64,000 nt of DNA, from contig NZ_JASHJL010000013.1 in the NCBI RefSeq assembly GCF_030733205.1, positions 62,001-126,000 on the forward strand, in the 5' to 3' direction. Below are positions 28,387-50,865 of the stretch, in pieces; the stretch's first letter is position 1; each line of letters starts with the position of its first letter. The notes below the pieces were generated by a model. The model saw nothing but the letters and a program-made list of their open reading frames with translations, was not told where the DNA came from and ran no database searches. Origin of the DNA: Mameliella sp. MMSF_3455. Lineage in GTDB: Bacteria; Pseudomonadota; Alphaproteobacteria; Rhodobacterales; Rhodobacteraceae. A program made the position numbers and the translations under genes.

Positions 28387-29700
28387 TCAATCCACCGGCA
28401 GCCCCGAGGGCACCCGGTCCGGTCGTCCCAGCGGACGCTGATCCACGCCGGCGCCGGTCAGCGCCTCCAGGAAGGCCAGCAGGTCCGCGACGTCCTCATC
28501 GGTCAGGGCCACCGGCACGATGTCCAGCGCCCGCGTCTGCCGGGCCATCTCGATCCTGTCCTGCCGGATCGCGAAATCCCCGGCCGCCAGCCAGGGCACC
28601 TCGGGCAGGCGGGCGTCGGCCTCCCGCCACGCCATCCGGCTGGCACTCGGGTCCAGGTGGTGACGCACGATCCCCTCCAGCGTGGCAAAGGCGCCGTTGT
28701 GCCCGTAAGGCGCGGTCAGCGCCACGTTCCGCAGGGACGGGGTGCGAAAGCGATAGGCGTCCTCCAACAGGTCGGTCTCTCCCATCCGGCCCACGTCGCG
28801 CGGCATCGGGTCGAAGACCCGCGTGCGCCCCGGCCCGAAAGCGGGCAGGCCAAGCGCGTGAAACCCCTGATCGGTCAGCAGCGGGCCGGAATGGCAGGTG
28901 TCGCAGCGGGCCTTGCCAAAGAACAATTGCCGCCCCCGTTCGGCCGCGGCGGGCAGGGGCTTGCCGTCCCGCAGCCAATCGTCCCAGGGGCTGTCGATGC
29001 TGATCCACTCGGCGGCGATGAAGGCCCCCAGCGCATTGCCGATCTCGACGATCGTGACCTCGCTGGGATGGTCGATGTGATCGAAGGCCTCGACAAACAA
29101 TTCACCGTATTCGGGGATCGTCCGCACGCGTTTCGCCAGCACCGGCCAGCCGAGATCGATCCGGTCGTGCACCGCGCCAGTCACAGCGTTCTCGCCCACG
29201 TTCCCGGCCATCTCGAACTGCGCCGTCAGCGGAAAAAGCGCCTGCGCGGCCAAGATGTTGTCCAGACCCTGCGGCAGCCATTCCTCTGCCGGGCTGTCAA
29301 AACCGTTGCCGAACTGGTTCGACACCTCCAGCCGCCCGTCGTGGAACATCACCCGCACCGACTTGTGACCAAGGTTCCACAAGGCCGGCGCGTTCCGGGG
29401 GATGCGTTTGCGGATCATCCGGTCGCCGGTGCCCGGAGTGCGCTTTGGCCCCAACCCCGTGCCGCCTTCGCCGATCCCCAGGCTCAACCCGTCGCCGCTG
29501 GACAGGCTGTGGTGGTGACAGGTCCCGCAAGAGATGTTTCGGTTCCCGCTGAGGATGGGATCGTAGAACAGCAACTGGCCCAGCCGGGCTTGCGCGGGGT
29601 CCGCGTCGATGAAATCCTCCATCGACACCGGCTCGGCGCGGGCCGCGACAGCAAGCCAGAGGAGGCAGAACACATGCAGGGCAGGGCGAAAGGCGCGCAT
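28387..29700 (-). CDS. di-haem cytochrome c peroxidase / MauG-family protein
   Basis: A 437-residue periplasmic protein with a signal peptide (RPALHVFCLLWLAVAARAEP) and two c-type haem sites, CGTCH at 58-62 and CDTCH at 266-270. Between them are GKRTP-like and NAPALWNLG segments typical of the bacterial cytochrome c peroxidase fold, and RFRTPSLRNVALTAPYGHNGAFATLEGIVRHH is the conserved C-terminal block. Members reduce H2O2 or oxidise protein side chains. Its ATG lies inside the divergent Sel1 gene, so the two 5' ends overlap by 27 bases; the true start could be slightly downstream. Confidence 0.88.
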   Translation of the reverse strand: MRAFRPALHVFCLLWLAVAARAEPVSMEDFIDADPAQARLGQLLFYDPILSGNRNISCGTCHHHSLSSGDGLSLGIGEGGTGLGPKRTPGTGDRMIRKRIPRNAPALWNLGHKSVRVMFHDGRLEVSNQFGNGFDSPAEEWLPQGLDNILAAQALFPLTAQFEMAGNVGENAVTGAVHDRIDLGWPVLAKRVRTIPEYGELFVEAFDHIDHPSEVTIVEIGNALGAFIAAEWISIDSPWDDWLRDGKPLPAAAERGRQLFFGKARCDTCHSGPLLTDQGFHALGLPAFGPGRTRVFDPMPRDVGRMGETDLLEDAYRFRTPSLRNVALTAPYGHNGAFATLEGIVRHHLDPSASRMAWREADARLPEVPWLAAGDFAIRQDRIEMARQTRALDIVPVALTDEDVADLLAFLEALTGAGVDQRPLGRPDRVPSGLPVD

Positions 29701-30171
29701 GCGGTCATTCTGGCAGGGTTGCTGGGCTTCTCAAGCCCCGTTCTTGCCGCCGACCTCGAAGAGGCGCGCGACCTGATGGAGGCGGGGGAGTTTCCCGCCG
29801 CGATGGCTCAGTTCCGCGTCCTCGCCCGGTCGGGCAATGCCGACGCCGAGGAACTGATCGGCGTCATGTATGCCCTTGGCCTTGGGGTTGAAAAAGACCC
29901 CGAGCGGGCCTTCGAATGGTATCTGCGTGCCTCGCTCAAGGGCCATCCCGGCGCCCAGTCAGGGCTGGGCTGGTATTATGAACTGGGCCAGGGCCTGCCC
30001 GCGCCGGATCTGGTGCGGGCCTACCTCTGGTACGCGCTGTCGGCCATCGGCGGCGACGTGGACGCGCCGGATTCGCTGGAGGAACTGACCCCGCGCATGA
30101 CCCGCGAACAGCGCAAGCGGGCCGAGACCCTGGTCGATGACTACCGCGTCTGGATGTATCCCTTCAGGTAA
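29674..30171 (+). CDS. secreted Sel1-repeat protein
   Basis: A 165-residue protein with a signal peptide (VILAGLLGFSSPVLAA) and two to three Sel1-type repeats, for example AEELIGVMYALGLGVEKDPERAFEWYLRAS and AQSGLGWYYELGQGLPAPDLVRAYLWYALS. Sel1 repeats form alpha-solenoids that bind proteins in the periplasm; the partner is unknown. The ATG at 29674 has a strong AGAGGAGG just upstream, which favours this start even though it overlaps the 5' end of the peroxidase gene. Its end overlaps the MocR-type gene by 8 bases. Confidence 0.82.
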   Translation: MQGRAKGAHAVILAGLLGFSSPVLAADLEEARDLMEAGEFPAAMAQFRVLARSGNADAEELIGVMYALGLGVEKDPERAFEWYLRASLKGHPGAQSGLGWYYELGQGLPAPDLVRAYLWYALSAIGGDVDAPDSLEELTPRMTREQRKRAETLVDDYRVWMYPFR

Positions 30172-43104: not shown

Positions 43105-44163
43105 TCAGTTCAGGTCGGCATCATAGGCGGCTTGAAGGTCGGCCTCTGCCTTTTCGACCGCTTCGATCAGTGCATCGAGAATCCTGTCGCCACCTTCCAC
43201 GTTTTCGCGGAACCAGTCCTGCACCGGCTTGGCGGCCTCGGCAAAGGCGGCCTTTTCCTCGGGCGAGGGGACGTAAATGTCACCGCCGCCTTCGACGAAA
43301 TCGGCATAGGCCTGGATCGCGCCGCGTTTGGGGGCGGCAAAGGTGGCCTGTTGCAGAGCGTAGAAGCCATCAACCACGACGCGCTTCATCGCCGGGTCCA
43401 TGTTCAGGAACTTCTCGTTGTTCATCCACCACAGCGCGCCCATATAGGCGTGCCCGTCCAGGGTGATGTACTGCAAGCCCGCATCAGGGAACTTCATACC
43501 CATGATGTCGGTGATGCCGTTCTTGGACCCGTCGACCACGCCGGTCTGGAACGAGGTGAAAAGCTCGGGCCACGGGATCGGCGTCGGCGCAGCGCCAAGT
43601 GCCTTGACCAGTTCCTGCGGCAGGTCGGCCACGACGGTCCGGATCTTCAGCCCTTCCATGTCGGCGGGCGAGGTGATGCGGCGCTGGGTATTTGCGAAGT
43701 TCCGCCAACCGCCGGTGTTGCCGATGGTCATCAGGCGCACGGTGTTGTCGCTGTCCTCCAGCGCCATGTCCCGCATGGTGCGGACGAAGTCGCCCGACAG
43801 GACGTGTTCGGCCACGCGGTCATTGGCCATCAGGTAAGGCAGGTCCAGAACCTGGACATAGGGAAAGATCCCCGCCGCGCCGCCGGAGGTGGAGATGTAG
43901 ATGTCGATCGAGCCCTCGGCCACGCCTTCGATGCATTCCGCCCCAGTCGAGCAGAGCTGCGTGCCCATGTAGATCTCGACTTCAATCGCGCCGTTCGACG
44001 CGGCCTCGACGAAGTCCTTGAAGACGATCAGGCCGGCGTAATCCTCGTCCGCTTCGTTCGAGTTGGCGGTGGCGACCAGCTTGATCGGGTCCTGCGCCAG
44101 CGCGGCGCCCCCGGTCAGCGTGGCGGCGGCAAAGGCCGCTGCGGTGAAAAACTGTTTCAGCAT
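43105..44163 (-). CDS. TRAP transporter substrate-binding protein (DctP family)
   Basis: A 352-residue periplasmic protein with a signal peptide ending in GGAALAQDP. The body shows the DctP pattern: GLIVFKDFVEAASNGAIEVEIYMGTQLCSTGAECIEGVAEGSIDIYI, then SPADMEGLKIRTVVADLPQELVKALGAAPTPIPWPELFTSFQTGVVDG, the conserved helix-strand connection that positions the carboxylate-binding arginine (R in KIRT). It lies last in the operon with DctQ, DctM and three sulfoquinovose-type enzymes, so sulfoquinovose or a sulfoquinovosyl glycoside is a likely ligand. Here the anionic group could be the sulfonate. Confidence 0.88.
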   Translation of the reverse strand: MLKQFFTAAAFAAATLTGGAALAQDPIKLVATANSNEADEDYAGLIVFKDFVEAASNGAIEVEIYMGTQLCSTGAECIEGVAEGSIDIYISTSGGAAGIFPYVQVLDLPYLMANDRVAEHVLSGDFVRTMRDMALEDSDNTVRLMTIGNTGGWRNFANTQRRITSPADMEGLKIRTVVADLPQELVKALGAAPTPIPWPELFTSFQTGVVDGSKNGITDIMGMKFPDAGLQYITLDGHAYMGALWWMNNEKFLNMDPAMKRVVVDGFYALQQATFAAPKRGAIQAYADFVEGGGDIYVPSPEEKAAFAEAAKPVQDWFRENVEGGDRILDALIEAVEKAEADLQAAYDADLN

Positions 44164-44193
44164 GTTGTACCTCCCGTATGCTGTCGTCTGTCT

Positions 44194-45711
44194 TTACCTT
44201 GGTTCCGGGCTGATACAGGCCATGAAGCCTGCATCGGCCGGGCATCGGATGAAATCTGTGAGATAGGGCACGGTCATCGAGATCGGAGGGAAATAGGTGA
44301 TCAGGAAGATCACGAGAATTTCCACCGCGAGGAAGGGCAGGATCGCGCGGGCGATGGTTTCCACCCGCTCACGGCTGACCGTGGAGGCGACGAACAGCAC
44401 CAGCCCCATCGGCGGCGTGGCCAGGCCCACGGTCAGGTTCACACTCATGATGATGGCGAAATGCACCGGGTGAACGCCGAGTTCGACAAAGATCGGGCCA
44501 AGGATCGGGCCGAGGATGATGATCGCCGGGCCGGCATCGAGGAACATGCCCACGATGAACAACAGGATGTTGATGAGGAACAGCAGGATCAGCGGGTTTT
44601 CCGACAGGCCCAGGATGATGTCCGTCAGGATCTGGGGCGCGTGGCTGAGCGAGACCACGGTCTTGAAGGAGACCGCCGCGCCGACCAGCAGCAGCACGGC
44701 GGATGTGGACAGCGCCGAGCGGGCCAGCACCTGGTAGAGGTCGCGCAGGGTCATGGACCGCAGCACGACGAAGCTGACCACCAGCGCGTAGGCCACGGCC
44801 ACGGCGCTGGCCTCTGTCGGGGTCATGACGCCGATGAGGATGCCGCCGAGAATGATGATCGGGGTCTGCAGGGGGGCGACGGCCTTTTTGCAGACGATGC
44901 GGAAATCATGGCTGACCGAGCGGCGCCAGTACATCAGCAGGAAATGCGCCGGGACCAGCATGGCAAGATAGACCGACCAGCCGCCCGGATTGCCCGGGAT
45001 CGCCGCGGCGACGGCGTAGAACAGCCCGGCAAGGTTGATCCGCACGAGGATGAGGCTGACCCAGTATTCCGTTGTGCTGATCGTCTGGCCCGGAGCCACG
45101 ATGCGTTCGGCCTTGGGCAGGTCGTAGCGGTCGGCCATGAGGCGGACCATGACCATCAGGCCGACACCCACCAGGATGCCCGGTACGATGCCTGCCAAGA
45201 ACAGCGCGGCGACGGATTCCCCCATGACATAGGCATAGATGATCATGATCCCCGAGGGCGGGATGATTGGGCCGATGACGGATGAGGCGGCGGTGATGGC
45301 GGCGGCGAAGCGGCGGGAATATCCGTTCTTTTCCATCGCCGGGATCAGGGTCGACCCCAGCGCCGAGGTGTCCGCCACCGCTGACCCCGACAGGCCCGCG
45401 AAGAGGATCGAGGACAGGATGTTGACCTGGGCCAACCCGCCGCGCAGGTGGCCCATGATGGCCTGTGAGAACTCGACCAGGCGGATGGTGATGCCGCCGC
45501 GGTTCATGATCTCGCCCGCCAGCATGAAGAAGGGCAGCGCCATCAGCGGAAAGCTGTCCATGCCGTTGTAGAGGTTGCGGTAGAGAACCGAGAGCTGACG
45601 GCTCTGATCGTCCATCACCAACAGGCCAAAGGGTGCGGCGAGCAAGGCAAAGACCACCGGAAGGCCGATCAGGATGAGCACCAGGAAGACGGGCAGAAAC
45701 CAGATCAGCAT
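44194..45711 (-). CDS. TRAP transporter large permease (DctM family), enlarged
   Basis: A 505-residue integral membrane protein, the sodium-driven core of the transporter. LPFFMLAGEIMNRGGITIRLVEFSQAIMGHLRGGLAQVNILSSILFAGLSGSAVADTSALGSTLIPAMEKNGY is the DctM signature. It is about 75 residues longer than a usual DctM; the extra part lies near residues 200-285 and contains two more hydrophobic segments (VSLILVRINLAGLFYAVAAAIPG and WSVYLAMLVPAHFLLMYW). The ATG at 45711 is one base after the DctQ stop. Extra-length DctM proteins occur in other TRAP subfamilies. Confidence 0.9.
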   Translation of the reverse strand: MLIWFLPVFLVLILIGLPVVFALLAAPFGLLVMDDQSRQLSVLYRNLYNGMDSFPLMALPFFMLAGEIMNRGGITIRLVEFSQAIMGHLRGGLAQVNILSSILFAGLSGSAVADTSALGSTLIPAMEKNGYSRRFAAAITAASSVIGPIIPPSGIMIIYAYVMGESVAALFLAGIVPGILVGVGLMVMVRLMADRYDLPKAERIVAPGQTISTTEYWVSLILVRINLAGLFYAVAAAIPGNPGGWSVYLAMLVPAHFLLMYWRRSVSHDFRIVCKKAVAPLQTPIIILGGILIGVMTPTEASAVAVAYALVVSFVVLRSMTLRDLYQVLARSALSTSAVLLLVGAAVSFKTVVSLSHAPQILTDIILGLSENPLILLFLINILLFIVGMFLDAGPAIIILGPILGPIFVELGVHPVHFAIIMSVNLTVGLATPPMGLVLFVASTVSRERVETIARAILPFLAVEILVIFLITYFPPISMTVPYLTDFIRCPADAGFMACISPEPR

Positions 45712-45712
45712 G

Positions 45713-46309
45713 TCAGTCGGCCCCCGCCATCGAGTCATGGTGCAGCGGTTTCAACCGGTCGCCGCCGCCCAGTAGGGTGATGACCTGCCGCAGGATCAGC
45801 TCGACGTTGACGAGGATCAACAGGTTCACCCCGACCCAGAGCGCGGCGTACTGGTACTGGTTGGCGAACTTTGCCTTGCACTTGCCGATCTCGATCCCGA
45901 AGGGCCAGCGCAGCGACGAGGAACAGCCGCGCCCCGAGAGGCTGTCGACATGGTTGTTCAGCCCCTTGTCCCAGGCGATCACCAGCACCCAGAGCGAGAT
46001 CCCCAAGAGCACCAGCGACAAGACCACGGCGATGATCCGGGGCAGGGCGCGTTCGACGAGGTCGATGGCGACGAAGCCGCCTTGCCGGTAGGCCAACGGT
46101 GCCATAAGGCCCACCAGCCAGAGCATTCCGAAGCGGGCCGCCTCTTCTGTCCAGTTTGGGGCGTCATTCAGGACGTACCGCCAAAATATCTGACCGAGGA
46201 TCAGGCAGACCATCACCGCCAGCGCAAGCACCGCGATGACGCGGCCCACGGCAAGCAGACCGGTGTTCAGCCGTTCGAGCGGCCAAAGCAGTGTCAGCAG
46301 CACCGGCAT
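45713..46309 (-). CDS. TRAP transporter small permease (DctQ family)
   Basis: A 198-residue protein with four membrane helices. VCLILGQIFWRYVLNDAPNWTEEAARFGMLWLVGLMAPLAYRQGGFVAIDLV is the DctQ core, with the charged loop that contacts DctM. A loop of about 40 polar residues (NNHVDSLSGRGCSSSLRWPFGIEIGKC) between helices 3 and 4 is longer than normal. The ATG at 46309 follows GGGAGGAG. A GGGGC-TTTTT-GCCCC hairpin lies between it and the flavin reductase gene. Confidence 0.88.
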   Translation of the reverse strand: MPVLLTLLWPLERLNTGLLAVGRVIAVLALAVMVCLILGQIFWRYVLNDAPNWTEEAARFGMLWLVGLMAPLAYRQGGFVAIDLVERALPRIIAVVLSLVLLGISLWVLVIAWDKGLNNHVDSLSGRGCSSSLRWPFGIEIGKCKAKFANQYQYAALWVGVNLLILVNVELILRQVITLLGGGDRLKPLHHDSMAGAD

Positions 46310-46327
46310 GGCGCTCCTCCCATTGGC

Positions 46328-46342
46328 GGGGCTTTTTGCCCC
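46328..46342. promoter_or_regulatory. small hairpin between flavin reductase and dctQ genes
   Basis: GGGGC-(T5)-GCCCC. On the minus strand no U-run follows it; it may adjust transporter versus enzyme levels or stabilise the mRNA. Confidence 0.3.
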
Positions 46343-46386
46343 TTGTTGTTCAGGCCGGGATCTTGGGTGCCCCGGTCCCTGCGGTT

Positions 46387-46896
46387 TCAGCCCTTGAGGC
46401 TGACGAACCGGCCGCCCTGGAACAGCAGGGGCAGGCCGGGCCGGAAGGCCGCGCTGGTCACGCGGCCAATGATGATGATGTGATCGCCCGCGTCATGGGT
46501 GATCTCTTGCGTGCAATCGTAGCGGGCGAGGCAACCGGCGATCTGCGGCACGCCGTTGGTGTCTTCGACCCAGTCGCAGGCGTGAAAGGCGTTGGCTTCG
46601 CGGGTGAACGCGGTGCAGATTTCCTGCTGGTGGCCGTCGAGCACATGGATCGCGTAGTGGCGCGCATCGCGAAACAGCGGAAAGCGGCGCGAGGATTTCT
46701 GGGGCGACCACAGCACCAGCGGCGGATCCAGCGAGACGCTGGCAAAGCTGGAGGCGGTGATGCCCACCGGACCTTCGGACCCCTGCGCCGTCACCACCGT
46801 CACGCCGGTGGCAAAGCTGCCAAGCGCCTCGCGAAAGGCACGGCTGTCTTCGGCCGGGTCGAATGTCTGCATGGAGTGGCTCAGGTCCCCGTCCAT
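46387..46896 (-). CDS. smoA: flavin reductase (SmoA-like) for a two-component monooxygenase
   Basis: A 169-residue protein of the flavin reductase-like (HpaC/NtaB) family. FREALGSFATGVTVVTAQGSEGPVGITASSFASVSLDPPLVLWSPQKSSRRFPLF is the conserved flavin-binding half, and FHACDW and the final GGRFVSLKG complete it. It should reduce free FMN with NAD(P)H for the SsuD-like enzyme encoded two genes upstream in the operon. The symbol follows the Agrobacterium sulfo-SMO genes and must not be confused with the polyol smo genes later in this window. The ATG overlaps the aldo-keto reductase stop by one base (TGATG). Confidence 0.78.
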   Translation of the reverse strand: MDGDLSHSMQTFDPAEDSRAFREALGSFATGVTVVTAQGSEGPVGITASSFASVSLDPPLVLWSPQKSSRRFPLFRDARHYAIHVLDGHQQEICTAFTREANAFHACDWVEDTNGVPQIAGCLARYDCTQEITHDAGDHIIIIGRVTSAAFRPGLPLLFQGGRFVSLKG

Positions 46897-47780
46897 CAGG
46901 GCACCTCGTGACCCAGCGCAGCGGTGTATAGCTCGAACCAGAGTTCGCGGGTCATCTGGATGTCGAGGGCCTTGGAAAACGCCTTGATCCGCTCGATCGT
47001 GTTGGTGCCCATGACTGGCAGGATGCCCGCCGGATGCGCCAGCAGCCAGGCCACGGCCACCGCAGCCCGGTCAACGAGGAAATCATCCGCCACCAGGTCC
47101 ATGACCTGCGCCAGTGGGGTATCCTCTGTCATCAACGCGCCGCCACCCAGCGGCGACCAGGCCATCGGCGGAATGCCGCGTTCCTGCAGGAAGGCCACGT
47201 CGCCATTGGTAAAGCCCTGATGCGCCGACAGGCTGAGCTCGATCTGATTGGTCACCAGCGGCGTTTTCATCGCCGACTGCAGCAGGGTCCAGTCGTGCAG
47301 CTTGTAGTTCGACACGCCCACGGCGCGCACCTTGCCGGACCCCACCAGTTCATCCAGCGTCTCGCCCGTTTCGCGGTGATCCATCAGCGGATCGGGGCGA
47401 TGGATCAGCAGCAGGTCGATCTCGTTGATGCCCATGAGTCTGAGCGAGTGATCGACCGATGCCATGATATGCGCGCGGCTGGTATCATAGTATTTCACCG
47501 GCGCATCCGCGTAGCGGCCCACTGGGGCCACGATGTCGCATTTCGTGACGATCTCGATCTGTTTGCGCAGGTCCGGTGTCAGCGCCGCGCCCAGGATCTC
47601 TTCGGCCATGTAGCCGCCGTAGATGTCCGCCTGATCCATCGTGGTGATGCCCTGGTCGAGGCAGGCGGCGATCTTGTTGCGGACATGATCCGGCGCGGTC
47701 ACGGCATCGTCGCCAAGGCGCCACATGCCATAAACGATGCGGCTGAGGCTCAGCCCCTCTTGAAGATCTACGCGGTCCAT
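46896..47780 (-). CDS. smoB: aldo-keto reductase (SmoB-like 6-oxoglucose reductase candidate)
   Basis: A 294-residue TIM-barrel reductase. The catalytic tetrad is visible as D49 (TTMDQADIYGGY), Y54, K80 (EIVTKCD) and H127 (LLLIHRPDPL). The NADPH-binding end has GTNTIERIKAFSKAL. The nearest broad relatives are YdhF-type reductases. Between a flavin reductase and an SsuD-like monooxygenase the best fit is SmoB of the sulfoquinovose oxidative-desulfonation pathway, which reduces 6-oxo-glucose to glucose. It overlaps both neighbours by one base. The fold is secure; the substrate is inferred from gene order. Confidence 0.75.
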   Translation of the reverse strand: MDRVDLQEGLSLSRIVYGMWRLGDDAVTAPDHVRNKIAACLDQGITTMDQADIYGGYMAEEILGAALTPDLRKQIEIVTKCDIVAPVGRYADAPVKYYDTSRAHIMASVDHSLRLMGINEIDLLLIHRPDPLMDHRETGETLDELVGSGKVRAVGVSNYKLHDWTLLQSAMKTPLVTNQIELSLSAHQGFTNGDVAFLQERGIPPMAWSPLGGGALMTEDTPLAQVMDLVADDFLVDRAAVAVAWLLAHPAGILPVMGTNTIERIKAFSKALDIQMTRELWFELYTAALGHEVP

Positions 47781-48934
47781 TACTTGCGCTCTCCTACGCC
47801 AAGGGGCGTTGCCGGGGTTTCATCGGGGACGCGGCCGTATTCATGCGGCAGCGAACAGGTTTTCAGCTCCGGCATTACCAACTTGCCGAAATGCTGGCAT
47901 TCGTCAATGTGCGGATAGCCGGAAAAGATGAAGGCGCGAATGCCCATCTTGCGGTATTCCTCGATCTCGCTCAGGATCTGGTCGGCGGACCCCACCAGCG
48001 CCGCGCCACAGCCCGACCGCGCGCGCCCGATCCCGGTCCAGAGGTGCGGCTCGACAAAACCGAACTGGTCGGCCAGTTCGCGCGCGCGCGACTGGTGGGA
48101 CACACCCAGGCTGCCGCTGTCATGGGCGCGGTCGCGGATCAGGCGTCCGTATTCGTCGTCCAGTTTCGACACCAGGCTTTCGGCGTATTCCCGTGCCTCG
48201 GCCTCTGTGTCGCGGACGATCATGTGTACGCGCAGCCCGTAGTCCAGTGTCCGCCCATAGCGTTCGGCGACGGCGTTCACGTCTTTCATGCGTTGGGCAA
48301 GCTGGTCCTTGGGTTCCGGCCACATCAGGTAGACGTCGCAGTGTTCGCCGCAGAGGTCCAGCGCCGGGGGCGAGTAGCCGCCAAAATACAGCAGCGGACC
48401 GCCGGTCTGGTAGGGTTTCGCGGGATCGGAGGTCAGACCTTCGAAATTGTAGACCTCGCCTTGGAAATTGATCTCGTCCTGCGTCCAGGCCTGTTTCAGG
48501 ATCTGCACCACCTCGCGCGAGCGTTGGTAGCGAAAGGCGCTTTCGGCCTTTTCTCCGGGGAAATCCGACGAGATCACATTCAGGGTCAGCCGTCCCTTCA
48601 TCATGTGATCCAGCGTGGCGACCGTACGGGCCAGCATGATCGGGTGCATCTCGCCACAGCGGATGGCGGCCAGCATGTTGATCCGGTCGGTCAAAGGCGC
48701 CATGCCCGCAACAAAGCTCAGCGTGTCCTGCCCGACCTGATAGGAAGAAGGCGCGAGGATGTTGCGAAAGCCCTGCTTTTCCGCCTCCAGCACGATGTCG
48801 CGGCAATGCTCGAAGGAAGACCGCAGATCGCCTTCGGGCACGCCGAGGTAGCGGTAGTCGTCGGAGCAGAGCGCCGAGAACCAGCTGACCTCGGACGCAT
48901 CGAGATCTGGGGATGTGACGGGCACGACGGTCAT
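47780..48934 (-). CDS. smoC: SsuD-like FMN-dependent sulfonate monooxygenase (SmoC-like sulfoquinovose monooxygenase candidate)
   Basis: A 384-residue luciferase-like TIM barrel. RLTLNVISSDFPGEKAESAFRYQRSREVVQILKQAWTQDEINFQGEVYNFEGL is the group signature shared with alkanesulfonate monooxygenase SsuD. HLWTGIGRARSGCGAALVGSADQILSEIEEYRKMGIRAFIFSGYPH is its C-terminal half. In the sulfo-SMO pathway the enzyme cleaves the C-S bond of sulfoquinovose with FMNH2 and O2 to sulfite and 6-oxo-glucose. The ATG at 48934 follows GGGAGG; an upstream ATG at 49006 would add 24 residues. It is the first gene of the minus-strand operon SmoC-SmoB-SmoA-DctQMP. Confidence 0.8.
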   Translation of the reverse strand: MTVVPVTSPDLDASEVSWFSALCSDDYRYLGVPEGDLRSSFEHCRDIVLEAEKQGFRNILAPSSYQVGQDTLSFVAGMAPLTDRINMLAAIRCGEMHPIMLARTVATLDHMMKGRLTLNVISSDFPGEKAESAFRYQRSREVVQILKQAWTQDEINFQGEVYNFEGLTSDPAKPYQTGGPLLYFGGYSPPALDLCGEHCDVYLMWPEPKDQLAQRMKDVNAVAERYGRTLDYGLRVHMIVRDTEAEAREYAESLVSKLDDEYGRLIRDRAHDSGSLGVSHQSRARELADQFGFVEPHLWTGIGRARSGCGAALVGSADQILSEIEEYRKMGIRAFIFSGYPHIDECQHFGKLVMPELKTCSLPHEYGRVPDETPATPLGVGERK

Positions 48935-49004
48935 TTCAGGGCCTCCCGGAAGTGCGCCGGATTCGGCGTCGATTTCTTCTTGCGTAGCATCCGGAATTTC
49001 ATGC

Positions 49005-49021
49005 ATCAATAGTGTATTAAT
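49005..49021. promoter_or_regulatory. candidate operator between the divergent sulfoquinovose genes
   Basis: ATCAATA-GTG-TATTAAT, a 17-base palindrome with one mismatch, in the only A/T-rich patch of the 130-base divergent region. Site of the type bound by GntR/HutC regulators, and the GntR gene starts 43 bases away. Inference only. Confidence 0.45.
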
Positions 49022-49063
49022 TTTGCCGCGACACGAACAGGACCGCGGCGGGAGGAGATCGTC

Positions 49064-49780
49064 TTGGCCCGGGGAAGAAGCTCGGCGGCGTTGCCCAAGC
49101 ACGCCCAGATCAGCGAGATGCTGATCCGTGACATTGCGTCGGGGCGGTTGGCTGATGGTGCGCGGTTGCCGCCGGAACGCGAGATGGCCGAACAGCTGGG
49201 CATTGCGGTCGGCACGTTGCGCAAGGCGCTGGAGGCGCTGGCCAACAAGGGGTTGCTGGACCGTGTTCAGGGCTCTGGCAATTATGTTCGCGCGCGTGAC
49301 GGCGTCGCTTCGATCTATTCCATGCTGCGGCTGGAGCTGAAGGCCGGGGGCGGGTTGCCGACAGCGGAGCTTTTGGGAGTCGAGCGGTTGGCGAAGCCGG
49401 CAGATGCGCCAGCTTTCGGACCTTCTGCCGAAGGGTGGCGGTTTCGACGGCTGCGGTTCCTGGGCGGCGTACCGGCGGCCATGGAAGAGATCTGGCTGGA
49501 CGGGGCGCAGGCGGCCCGTGTCGCGGCCGAGGACGTTCTGGAATCGCTGTACCTGTTCTACCGAGAGCGGTTGGGGCTGGTGATCCTTTCGGCAGAGGAC
49601 AGGGTCGGCTTTGCGCCGGTGCCCGAATGGCGCGACACCCGGTTTCCACCCCGGGCGGGCGATACCGCGGGCTATGTCGAGCGTATCGCCTGGGAAAAGT
49701 CTGGTGCGCCGGTCGAATACTCGCGCACATGGTTCGACGCGGAAACCGTCACTTATATCAACAGGATCGGCAGGGGATGA
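49064..49780 (+). CDS. GntR-family regulator (HutC/UTRA type)
   Basis: A 238-residue repressor-type protein. The winged helix occupies residues 12-75 (SGRLADGARLPPEREMAEQLGIAVGTLRKALEALANKGLLDRVQGSGNYV), and a UTRA-like effector domain follows (about 85-235), ending PVEYSRTWFDAETVTYINRIG. The start is TTG 49064 behind GGAGGAG. It is divergent from the SmoC-like gene and overlaps the Gfo/Idh/MocA gene by four bases, so it probably controls sulfoquinovose use, with the sugar or an intermediate as inducer. Confidence 0.85.
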   Translation: MARGRSSAALPKHAQISEMLIRDIASGRLADGARLPPEREMAEQLGIAVGTLRKALEALANKGLLDRVQGSGNYVRARDGVASIYSMLRLELKAGGGLPTAELLGVERLAKPADAPAFGPSAEGWRFRRLRFLGGVPAAMEEIWLDGAQAARVAAEDVLESLYLFYRERLGLVILSAEDRVGFAPVPEWRDTRFPPRAGDTAGYVERIAWEKSGAPVEYSRTWFDAETVTYINRIGRG

Positions 49781-50865
49781 GTGTGGTCAGATATGGCGTG
49801 ATCGGCTGTGGCATGATGGGCCGCGAGCATATCCAGAACATCAACCTCTTGCCCCAGGGCAGGGTGGTCGCGGTCTTTGACCCGGTCACGGACCTGGCGC
49901 AGAGCGCCGCAGACCTGGCGGGTGGCGCACAGGTCTGCGCCACGCTGGACGAGTTGCTGGCGCTTGAGGGACTCGACGCTCTGGTGGTGGTCAGCCCGAA
50001 CGATTGCCACGTCCCGCAGTTGCGCCAGATCGCGGCGGCGCGTCCGTTGCCGGTTCTTTGCGAAAAGCCGCTGTATACCACGCCGGAAGACGAGGCTTTC
50101 CTGGCCGAGTTCGCGCGCAGCTATCCGGCGCCGGTCTGGGTGGCGATGGAATATCGCTACATGCCGCCCGTGGCATTGTTGCGCCAGGAGGTGACCGAGG
50201 CGACGGGCGGGATTTCCATGTTGTCGATCCGCGAACACCGTTTCCCCTTTCTGCCCAAGGTTGGCGCCTGGAACCGGTTCAACGCGCGCAGCGGCGGCAC
50301 CCTTGTCGAGAAGTGCTGTCATTTCTTCGATCTCATGCGTCTGATCCTGCGGGACGAGCCTGTGCGCGTCATGGCCAGCGCCGGGCAGGCGGTGAACCAC
50401 AAGGATGAAACCTATGACGGGCGCGCGCCGGACATTTGGGACAACGGCTATGTGATCCTCGATTTCGCGGGCGGCGCGCGGGCGATGCTGGAACTCTGCA
50501 TGTTCGCCGAAGGATCGCGCTACCAGGAAGAGATCTGCGCCGTTGGCCCCCGTGGCAAGATCGAGGCGCTGGTGCCCGGACCGGGACGGTTCTGGCCCGG
50601 GCATCTGGGCGAGGCGCCGGTGCCTCAGGTCATCGTCTCTCCGCGCGTGCCCAAGGGGCCGCGCGTGATCGAGGTGCCGGTGGAGGCCGAGTTGCTGGCC
50701 GCGGGCGATCACAACGGGTCGACCTTCTACCAGCATGAAGGGTTCAACGCCGTGGTGCGTGGCGAGGGAGAGCCTGAGGTGACGCTGTCCGACGGCATGG
50801 CCGCCGTGCGGATCGGGCTGGCAGCGCAGGAAAGCGCGCGGACCGGGCAGGCGGTGCTGCTGTAG
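49777..50865 (+). CDS. Gfo/Idh/MocA-family protein, candidate NAD+-dependent sulfoquinovosidase
   Basis: A 362-residue protein. The Rossmann motif is YGVIGCGMMGREHIQN at the N-terminus, E96-K97-P98 is the conserved sugar-oxidoreductase EKP, and H182 lies in GGTLVEKCCHFFDL of the substrate half. Plain dehydrogenases and NAD+-dependent glycosidases share this architecture. A published NAD+-dependent sulfoquinovosidase family occurs in sulfoquinovose clusters lacking a classical GH31 enzyme, including Roseobacters; this locus fits that description, and no GH31 was found. The ATGA overlap with the GntR gene shows they are co-translated. The glycosidase assignment is inference from context. Confidence 0.65.
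   Translation: MSVVRYGVIGCGMMGREHIQNINLLPQGRVVAVFDPVTDLAQSAADLAGGAQVCATLDELLALEGLDALVVVSPNDCHVPQLRQIAAARPLPVLCEKPLYTTPEDEAFLAEFARSYPAPVWVAMEYRYMPPVALLRQEVTEATGGISMLSIREHRFPFLPKVGAWNRFNARSGGTLVEKCCHFFDLMRLILRDEPVRVMASAGQAVNHKDETYDGRAPDIWDNGYVILDFAGGARAMLELCMFAEGSRYQEEICAVGPRGKIEALVPGPGRFWPGHLGEAPVPQVIVSPRVPKGPRVIEVPVEAELLAAGDHNGSTFYQHEGFNAVVRGEGEPEVTLSDGMAAVRIGLAAQESARTGQAVLL

Follow-up and report, generated by a model that had tools for sequence, protein, structure and literature searches.

A probable sulfoquinovose desulfurisation locus with a TRAP transporter and a predicted GH188 sulfoquinovosidase in Mameliella sp. MMSF_3455

The divergent locus and its genes

The 64,000-nucleotide stretch of the Mameliella sp. 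MMSF_3455 genome analysed here, hereafter the window (NCBI RefSeq assembly GCF_030733205.1, contig NZ_JASHJL010000013.1, positions 62,001 to 126,000), contains a locus which very probably serves the use of sulfoquinovose (SQ) by oxidative desulfurisation, i.e. the sulfo-SMO pathway (SMO, sulfoquinovose monooxygenase). Sulfoquinovosyl glycerol (SQGro) and/or free SQ would be imported by a tripartite ATP-independent periplasmic (TRAP) transporter, and the glycoside would be cleaved by SqgA, a predicted member of glycoside hydrolase family 188 (GH188). The interval 43105-50865 is made up of two divergent transcription units, smoC-smoB-smoA-dctQ-dctM-dctP on the minus strand and a regulator gene with the SqgA gene on the plus strand, and its features are as follows.

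47780..48934, minus strand: SmoC, predicted sulfoquinovose monooxygenase dependent on reduced flavin mononucleotide (FMNH2) (PF00296, 190 bits; 7oh2 and 7olf matches)
46896..47780, minus strand: SmoB, predicted 6-dehydroglucose reductase of the aldo-keto reductase type (PF00248, 169 bits; 7bby, E 1.4e-111)
46387..46896, minus strand: SmoA-like flavin reductase (PF01613, 132 bits; best solved match 4xhy, E 1e-43)
45713..46309, minus strand: DctQ, TRAP small permease (PF04290, 66 bits)
44194..45738, minus strand: DctM, TRAP large permease, start uncertain (PF06808, 375 bits)
43105..44163, minus strand: DctP-type TRAP solute-binding protein, proposed to bind SQ/SQGro (PF03480, 173 bits; signal peptide by eye)
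49064..49780, plus strand: GntR/UTRA-family regulator, divergent from smoC, TTG start uncertain (PF00392, PF07702)
49777..50865, plus strand: SqgA, predicted GH188 sulfoquinovosidase dependent on nicotinamide adenine dinucleotide (NAD+) (PF01408, PF02894; 8zn9, 8qc2 and 8qc3 matches)
49002..49020, minus strand: conserved direct repeat (TTRAT, 11 bases, TTGAT), putative regulator site or promoter element

An earlier note on this DNA had read the minus-strand operon as SsuD-like monooxygenase, aldo-keto reductase, flavin reductase, DctQ, DctM and DctP, in that order; all six genes are present, each with a Pfam assignment above the curated cut-off, and the TRAP transporter is complete. The SqgA gene and the GntR/UTRA gene lie in the same interval and went unnamed in the reasoning of that note. 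The genes for SmoC and SmoB overlap by one base, as do those for SmoB and SmoA, gaps of 77 and 30 bases separate SmoA from DctQ and DctM from DctP, and the open reading frames of DctQ and DctM, as listed, overlap by 26 bases; on the plus strand, the GntR/UTRA gene overlaps the Gfo/Idh/MocA-type gene encoding SqgA. Alignment with 7oh2 moves the start of SmoC to 48934, 56 codons downstream of that of the listed open reading frame. Among the named relatives listed, M. alba (L012) is the nearest, with a SmoC identity of 96% (query including one codon before the start).

The predicted enzymes and the solute-binding protein

Among solved structures, SmoC is closest to 7oh2 (E 8e-214; 305 of 383 positions identical, 79.6%) and 7olf (E 1e-212), which stand about 500 bits above the next solved chain, an SsuD-type enzyme (E 2e-60), the E. 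coli-type SsuD giving E 3e-56. SmoB matches 7bby (E 1.4e-111; 180 of 293 identical, 61.4%), and both proteins align with the solved enzymes across nearly their full length. The names of these entries in the PDB are generic only; we take 7oh2 and 7olf to be SmoC and 7bby to be SmoB. The equivalog model for alkanesulfonate monooxygenase, TIGR03565, gives SmoC 250.3 bits, under its cut-off of 518.2. The flavin reductase which a sulfo-SMO system requires is represented by the SmoA-like protein, judged by its PF01613 domain. With SmoC nearest to 7oh2 and 7olf and not to SsuD, SmoB nearest to 7bby and the alkanesulfonate model missed, the sulfo-SMO assignment made in the earlier note appears to hold. 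Comparison of the SmoC active site with the characterised enzyme, which that note had proposed as a check, is likewise favourable as far as sequence can tell: the blocks MWPE, GLRVH, IGRARSG and SGYPH, shared with 7oh2, hold the counterparts of the SsuD active-site residues (presumably W196, R226, H228, R297, Y331 and H333). Elsewhere in the genome, a protein with a Mo-co dimer domain (PF03404, 85 bits) at G000:C11:146650-147009 is a possible sulfite dehydrogenase for the sulfite released.

SqgA matches three solved structures, 8zn9 (E 2e-151), FlSqgA 8qc2 (E 7e-117) and ArSqgA 8qc3 (E 1e-113). In the alignment with 8qc3, residues K97, Y126, R155, L159, K161, E178, H182 and H312 of SqgA correspond to K107, Y136, R166, L170, K172, E189, H193 and H321 of ArSqgA, so that all eight placeable SQ-contacting residues are identical, small indels shifting three of them. 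The SQ-contacting residues of ArSqgA, including the sulfonate contacts R166, L170 and K172, are those given in the accessible part of PMC10755693. For Glu163 of ArSqgA, the numbering which fits the other eight puts position 163 beside, and not on, a conserved glutamate in 8qc3 itself. A sulfoquinovosidase of family GH31 elsewhere in the genome was looked for and not found, the GH31 catalytic domain having no match there; the SQ-isomerase model likewise has no match in this genome. No signal peptide is evident in SqgA, and the GH188 family requires NAD+; the glycoside must therefore reach the cytoplasm, and we accordingly propose, by inference, that the TRAP transporter carries SQGro besides SQ. 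The presence of SqgA strengthens the case for a sulfo-SMO locus and suggests that the glyceride SQGro, and not free SQ alone, is imported.

DctP itself has no close solved relative, the best match being 4nq8 (E 2e-29). Three of its residues, C71, C77 and R175, are invariant in all 78 near orthologues (four distant rows having been set aside), and R175 is, judged by its motif, presumably the equivalent of the carboxylate-binding arginine of TRAP solute-binding proteins. In such proteins this arginine binds the carboxylate of the ligand, according to the part of PMC4646407 available to us.

Distribution of the locus, its transporter and a di-haem companion

Named relatives were drawn as the best 80 of 131 found in the species collection, a set which takes in SAR116, Hyphomicrobiales and gammaproteobacterial genomes (L079, L074, L082, L083, L088). 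Twelve were set aside for short flanks, leaving 68 judgeable loci with at least 5.2 kb behind SmoC. The TRAP transporter is in place in 42 of these 68, and the exact order SmoC-SmoB-SmoA-DctQ-DctM-DctP is found in 40 of the 42, the other two being without a detected SmoA; a chance arrangement is excluded by this conservation of order. SqgA is present in 67 of the 71 best-80 loci with sufficient upstream flank. As the earlier note had supposed, the TRAP transporter is an uptake solution different from the ATP-binding cassette (ABC) transporter of Agrobacterium, yet it is no rarity, being the commonest arrangement among the judgeable relatives. Eleven SMO loci without a TRAP transporter were read, two of which (L059 and L073) fall outside the 68; a family-1/8 solute-binding protein lies nearby in L076 and L073.

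In a survey of 394 genomes of the family, SmoC (E<=1e-120) was found in 164, DctP (E<=1e-90) in 144 and SqgA (E<=1e-100) in 188; with SmoC present in 164 of the 394 and the transporter at 42 of 68 judgeable loci, a rare or strain-specific arrangement is ruled out. SqgA accompanies SmoC in 158 of 164 genomes and DctP in 135 of 144. DctP and SmoC occur together in 109 genomes, SmoC without DctP in 55 and DctP without SmoC in 35.

All 35 genomes with DctP and no detected SmoC were scanned at the DctP locus. In 21 of them a single locus unites the TRAP transporter with SqgA and with a PfkB kinase, a LacD-type aldolase and an isomerase, and these loci are, by their predicted enzymes, of the sulfoglycolytic Embden–Meyerhof–Parnas (sulfo-EMP) type, a chemistry distinct from SMO. 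The label is based on three enzyme matches in L120: a kinase closest among solved structures to the sulfofructose kinase 7ag6 (E 4e-59), an isomerase which in NCBIfam matches the model for the SQ isomerase SftI and no other (279 bits, under its cut-off of 700) and an aldolase of the tagatose-1,6-bisphosphate kind. Eight of the remaining 14 loci hold parts of an SMO locus, contig-cut, partial or SmoC-less in the assembly (L124, L129, L138, L139, L146, L147, L151, L153); L140 has the kinase, isomerase and SqgA and no aldolase; DctP is at about 50% in L141, with nothing else, and in L145, with SqgA, an isomerase and a weak kinase match; L152 is a short contig, and the other two, L122 and L144, are weighed below. 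In L139, L153 and L138, SqgA and the TRAP transporter are present (in L139 and L153 also SmoB and SmoA) and tblastn finds no SmoC; gene loss, an assembly gap and a replacement oxygenase elsewhere are the candidate explanations.

A quick tree of 82 DctP proteins, drawn in full, interleaves EMP-type and SMO-type rows. On a more careful tree the EMP label needs 11 changes, at least five of them forced by well-supported branches, and a single change of label is seen in none of 200 bootstrap trees, from a bootstrap which had not settled. Confinement of the transporter to SMO loci is ruled out by the sulfo-EMP-type loci with the same DctP lineage and by the interleaved tree. Since EMP-type and SMO-type loci share one DctP lineage, with 11 label changes, the TRAP substrate is best taken as a shared entry compound, and the compound common to both pathways is SQ or its glyceride. 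In a draw of 385 genomes of the class, eight which belong to other families have a DctP match at E<=1e-70. L162 and L166 among these are of the SMO type and L163 and L164 of the EMP type, all four with SqgA; in L161 (a 3 kb contig) and L168 (DctP 46%) none of the SQ enzymes sought turned up in the stretch read. L167 (L167:7103-16996), from another alphaproteobacterial family, is also of the EMP type: a distant DctP (52%) and DctM accompany the kinase, aldolase and isomerase as well as a gene of the GH31 family, and a TRAP transporter of this type may be paired there with a GH31 enzyme.

The direct repeat TTRAT-TTGAT with its 11-base spacing is found in 70 of 78 smoC-gntR gaps in a loose form and in 62 of 78 in a stricter one, against an average of 0.01 of 78 for the loose form in letter shuffles. 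L017, L026, L035, L043, L061, L085, L089 and L091 lack the loose form, and a search of the 21 EMP-type loci gave no copy of the strict one. A related 19-base pattern, allowing at most one mismatch, has a single match in the genome of the strain itself, at 49002-49020. The repeat fits a GntR operator or a piece of the smoC promoter.

Judged by their translations, the flanks of the interval appear unrelated: dctP is followed by the gene of a GGDEF protein, and past the plus-strand unit comes a MacB-like ABC system. Further off in the window, about 13 kb beyond dctP, is a head-to-head pair of genes which is relevant through its distribution.

28387..29700, minus strand: MauG-like periplasmic di-haem protein, displaced TRAP associate (PF03150, 113 bits; two CxxCH; signal peptide by eye)
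29707..30171, plus strand: Sel1-repeat protein, start uncertain (PF08238, 59 bits; signal peptide by eye)

The MauG-like protein stays below the cut-off of each of its best family models: TIGR03981, for the His-Xaa-Ser system MauG-like protein (239 bits, 340 required), MbnH and MauG. Among the loci compared, its closest counterpart (87% identical) is encoded within the SQ locus of Mameliella sediminis (L014), and in both the window and L014 the gene adjoins the same neighbour, a GDP-fucose synthase by look; the M. alba locus has no MauG-like gene within reach of dctP either. The Sel1-repeat protein and its counterpart in L140 share 65% identity across 138 residues. A gene for a MauG-like protein at least 50% identical to that of the window lies 0.5-4 kb past DctP in 25 of 42 TRAP-bearing SMO loci and 18 of 21 loci of the EMP type, where a Sel1-repeat gene accompanies it every time; it occurs in one of 26 SMO loci without the transporter, there without Sel1. 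Genome-wide, with a limit of E<=1e-140 chosen after seeing a score gap from 1.7e-144 to 3.1e-122, the gene is present in 79 of the 109 genomes which combine SmoC with DctP, 5 of 55 with SmoC only, 27 of 35 with DctP only and 2 of 195 with neither. A DctP orthologue is thus found in 106 of the 113 genomes with the MauG-like gene, on the same contig in 92 of the 106 and within 6.5 kb in 84 of the 92; the gene also occurs in six of the eight class genomes outside the family. The MauG-like/Sel1 pair tracks the TRAP transporter more than it tracks SmoC.

MauG and MbnH oxidatively modify partner proteins, and a protein-modification role was therefore considered beside a role on sulfolipid-derived material. 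No conserved tryptophan or cysteine of DctP varies with the presence of the MauG-like gene, those conserved at 90% or more being invariant in all 78 near orthologues, so that this comparison says nothing either way on DctP as the target. Some loci (L122:2633-3379, L140:7913-8605, L144:7994-8758 and L014 at ~16800) also have a PhyH-family dioxygenase gene close to those for DctP and the MauG-like protein; it might encode a further carbon–sulfur or lipid-directed oxygenase, or be unrelated.

Interpretation and comparison with known systems

The sulfo-SMO reading with TRAP import draws on homology, residue conservation, gene order and co-occurrence, and from these we infer the activities, the transported ligand and the regulation. 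DctPQM would import SQGro and/or free SQ, powered by an ion gradient, and SqgA with bound NAD+ would split the glycoside in the cytoplasm into SQ and glycerol. SmoA would then supply FMNH2, with which SmoC and O2 would break the carbon–sulfur bond to give sulfite and 6-dehydroglucose, and SmoB would reduce the latter to glucose. The GntR regulator may govern the divergent promoters, probably via the TTRAT/TTGAT repeat, with an SQ compound as its likely inducer.

Several observations weigh against the transporter part of this reading. The TRAP transporter is not obligatory, since 26 of the 68 judgeable SMO loci have none in place, and nine of the 144 DctP genomes have no SqgA match. L122 and L144 combine the TRAP transporter with a PhyH-family protein and a MauG-like gene and have none of the sought SQ enzymes in the stretch read, their genomes having SqgA elsewhere, and L165, from outside the family, has the TRAP transporter and a MauG-like gene with none of those enzymes in the stretch read. 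These loci without SQ enzymes nearby, few as they are, and the TRAP-less SMO loci would suit an arrangement in which the oxygenase operon desulfonates SQ and the transporter carries some other compound, e.g. a short sulfonate such as dihydroxypropanesulfonate or sulfolactate, and stands beside the operon through history alone; a DctP which binds isethionate has indeed been solved (8t9t, E 1e-26 to the DctP of the window). Sulfo-SMO, however, yields no C3 sulfonate, yet in 40 of the 42 loci with the transporter its genes follow those of the SMO enzymes in an unchanged order, and among the sought genes SMO and EMP loci share only GH188 besides the TRAP transporter and its MauG/Sel1 neighbours. 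We consider this alternative unlikely. As the transporter accompanies SQ glycosidases while the downstream chemistry varies, it is best read as an importer of SQ or SQGro.

Much less probable still is sulfur scavenging from alkanesulfonates by an ssu-type operon, with SsuD, SsuE and the TRAP transporter in place of SsuABC. The SsuD-like fold, the flavin reductase and a general similarity to TIGR03565 (250 bits) would accord with it, but the cut-off of 518 is widely missed, the SmoC chains are some 500 bits ahead, and neither an aldo-keto reductase 61% identical to 7bby nor a GH188 glycosidase has a known role in alkanesulfonate use; on the score and the best solved matches we reject an alkanesulfonate operon. 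Of similarly slight likelihood is a locus chiefly for another 6-sulfosugar glycoside such as sulfofucose. The link to SQ is one of sequence similarity and 6-sulfo hexoses are chemically close, but the identity to SQ-active enzymes is high and the SQ-contacting residues are kept, and the part of PMC12421959 consulted assigns ABC transporters and other enzymes to the sulfofucose clusters published.

More broadly, and more tentatively, at somewhat less than an even chance, the loci may represent one sulfosugar-uptake module of Alphaproteobacteria and a few Gammaproteobacteria, in which an SQ/SQGro TRAP transporter and GH188 are combined with interchangeable SMO or sulfo-EMP-type catabolism. Such a module would often include the MauG-like/Sel1 pair, acting on the same periplasmic step, either on a substrate derived from sulfolipid or through the oxidative modification of a protein partner such as the Sel1 protein or DctP. 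Such a pair would constitute an additional periplasmic step in sulfosugar use; the link is new as far as seen, no literature search having been made for it. The SQ output of phototrophs is put at 10 billion tonnes a year in the accessible part of PMC10755693. Bacteria of the Roseobacter clade are reported to use SQ in marine settings, and their uptake route is not settled in the literature searched. If the TRAP transporter carries SQGro, it would offer a pathway-independent marker of SQ uptake, helpful for marine metagenomes, and would extend TRAP ligands to a sulfonated sugar glycoside.

Turning to known systems, the sulfo-SMO cluster of Agrobacterium, reportedly described by Sharma et al. 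in 2022, resembles the window locus in SmoC, SmoB and the flavin reductase, with oxidative release of sulfite and reduction of 6-dehydroglucose to glucose. That cluster contains a GH31 sulfoquinovosidase, whereas the window locus uses a predicted GH188 enzyme. Its transporter also differs, being an SQGro ABC transporter (PMC9594981, in the part consulted) where the window locus has a TRAP transporter.

Sulfo-SMO with GH188 in Roseobacter-clade bacteria is already published: Kaur et al. (2023; PMC10755693) report near-universal GH188 in the sulfo-SMO clusters of marine Roseobacter bacteria, the pathway in this clade is also treated in PMC13372026, and, as far as the accessible parts of these sources go, the window locus is one of the same kind. 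TRAP transporters, seen in the window locus, are not discussed in the main text of PMC10755693 as far as it was accessible. The GH188 enzymes FlSqgA (8qc2), ArSqgA (8qc3) and 8zn9 have the same Gfo/Idh/MocA domains and eight placed residues as SqgA, and no difference was noted between them at this level. The isethionate-binding DctP 8t9t is likewise of the P type, and its NLKVRT aligns with the GLKIRT block around R175; it is, however, remote, and the proposed ligand here is a sugar sulfonate. C71 and C77, invariant in the DctP lineage of the window, are absent at those positions in the three solved relatives aligned. A report of a TRAP transporter for SQ was not found in the open-licence literature searched, and since this gene order is so common the transporter may well be drawn in other published gene maps. 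New as far as seen are the sharing of one TRAP transporter by two chemistries, its interleaved phylogeny and the single-copy regulatory repeat.

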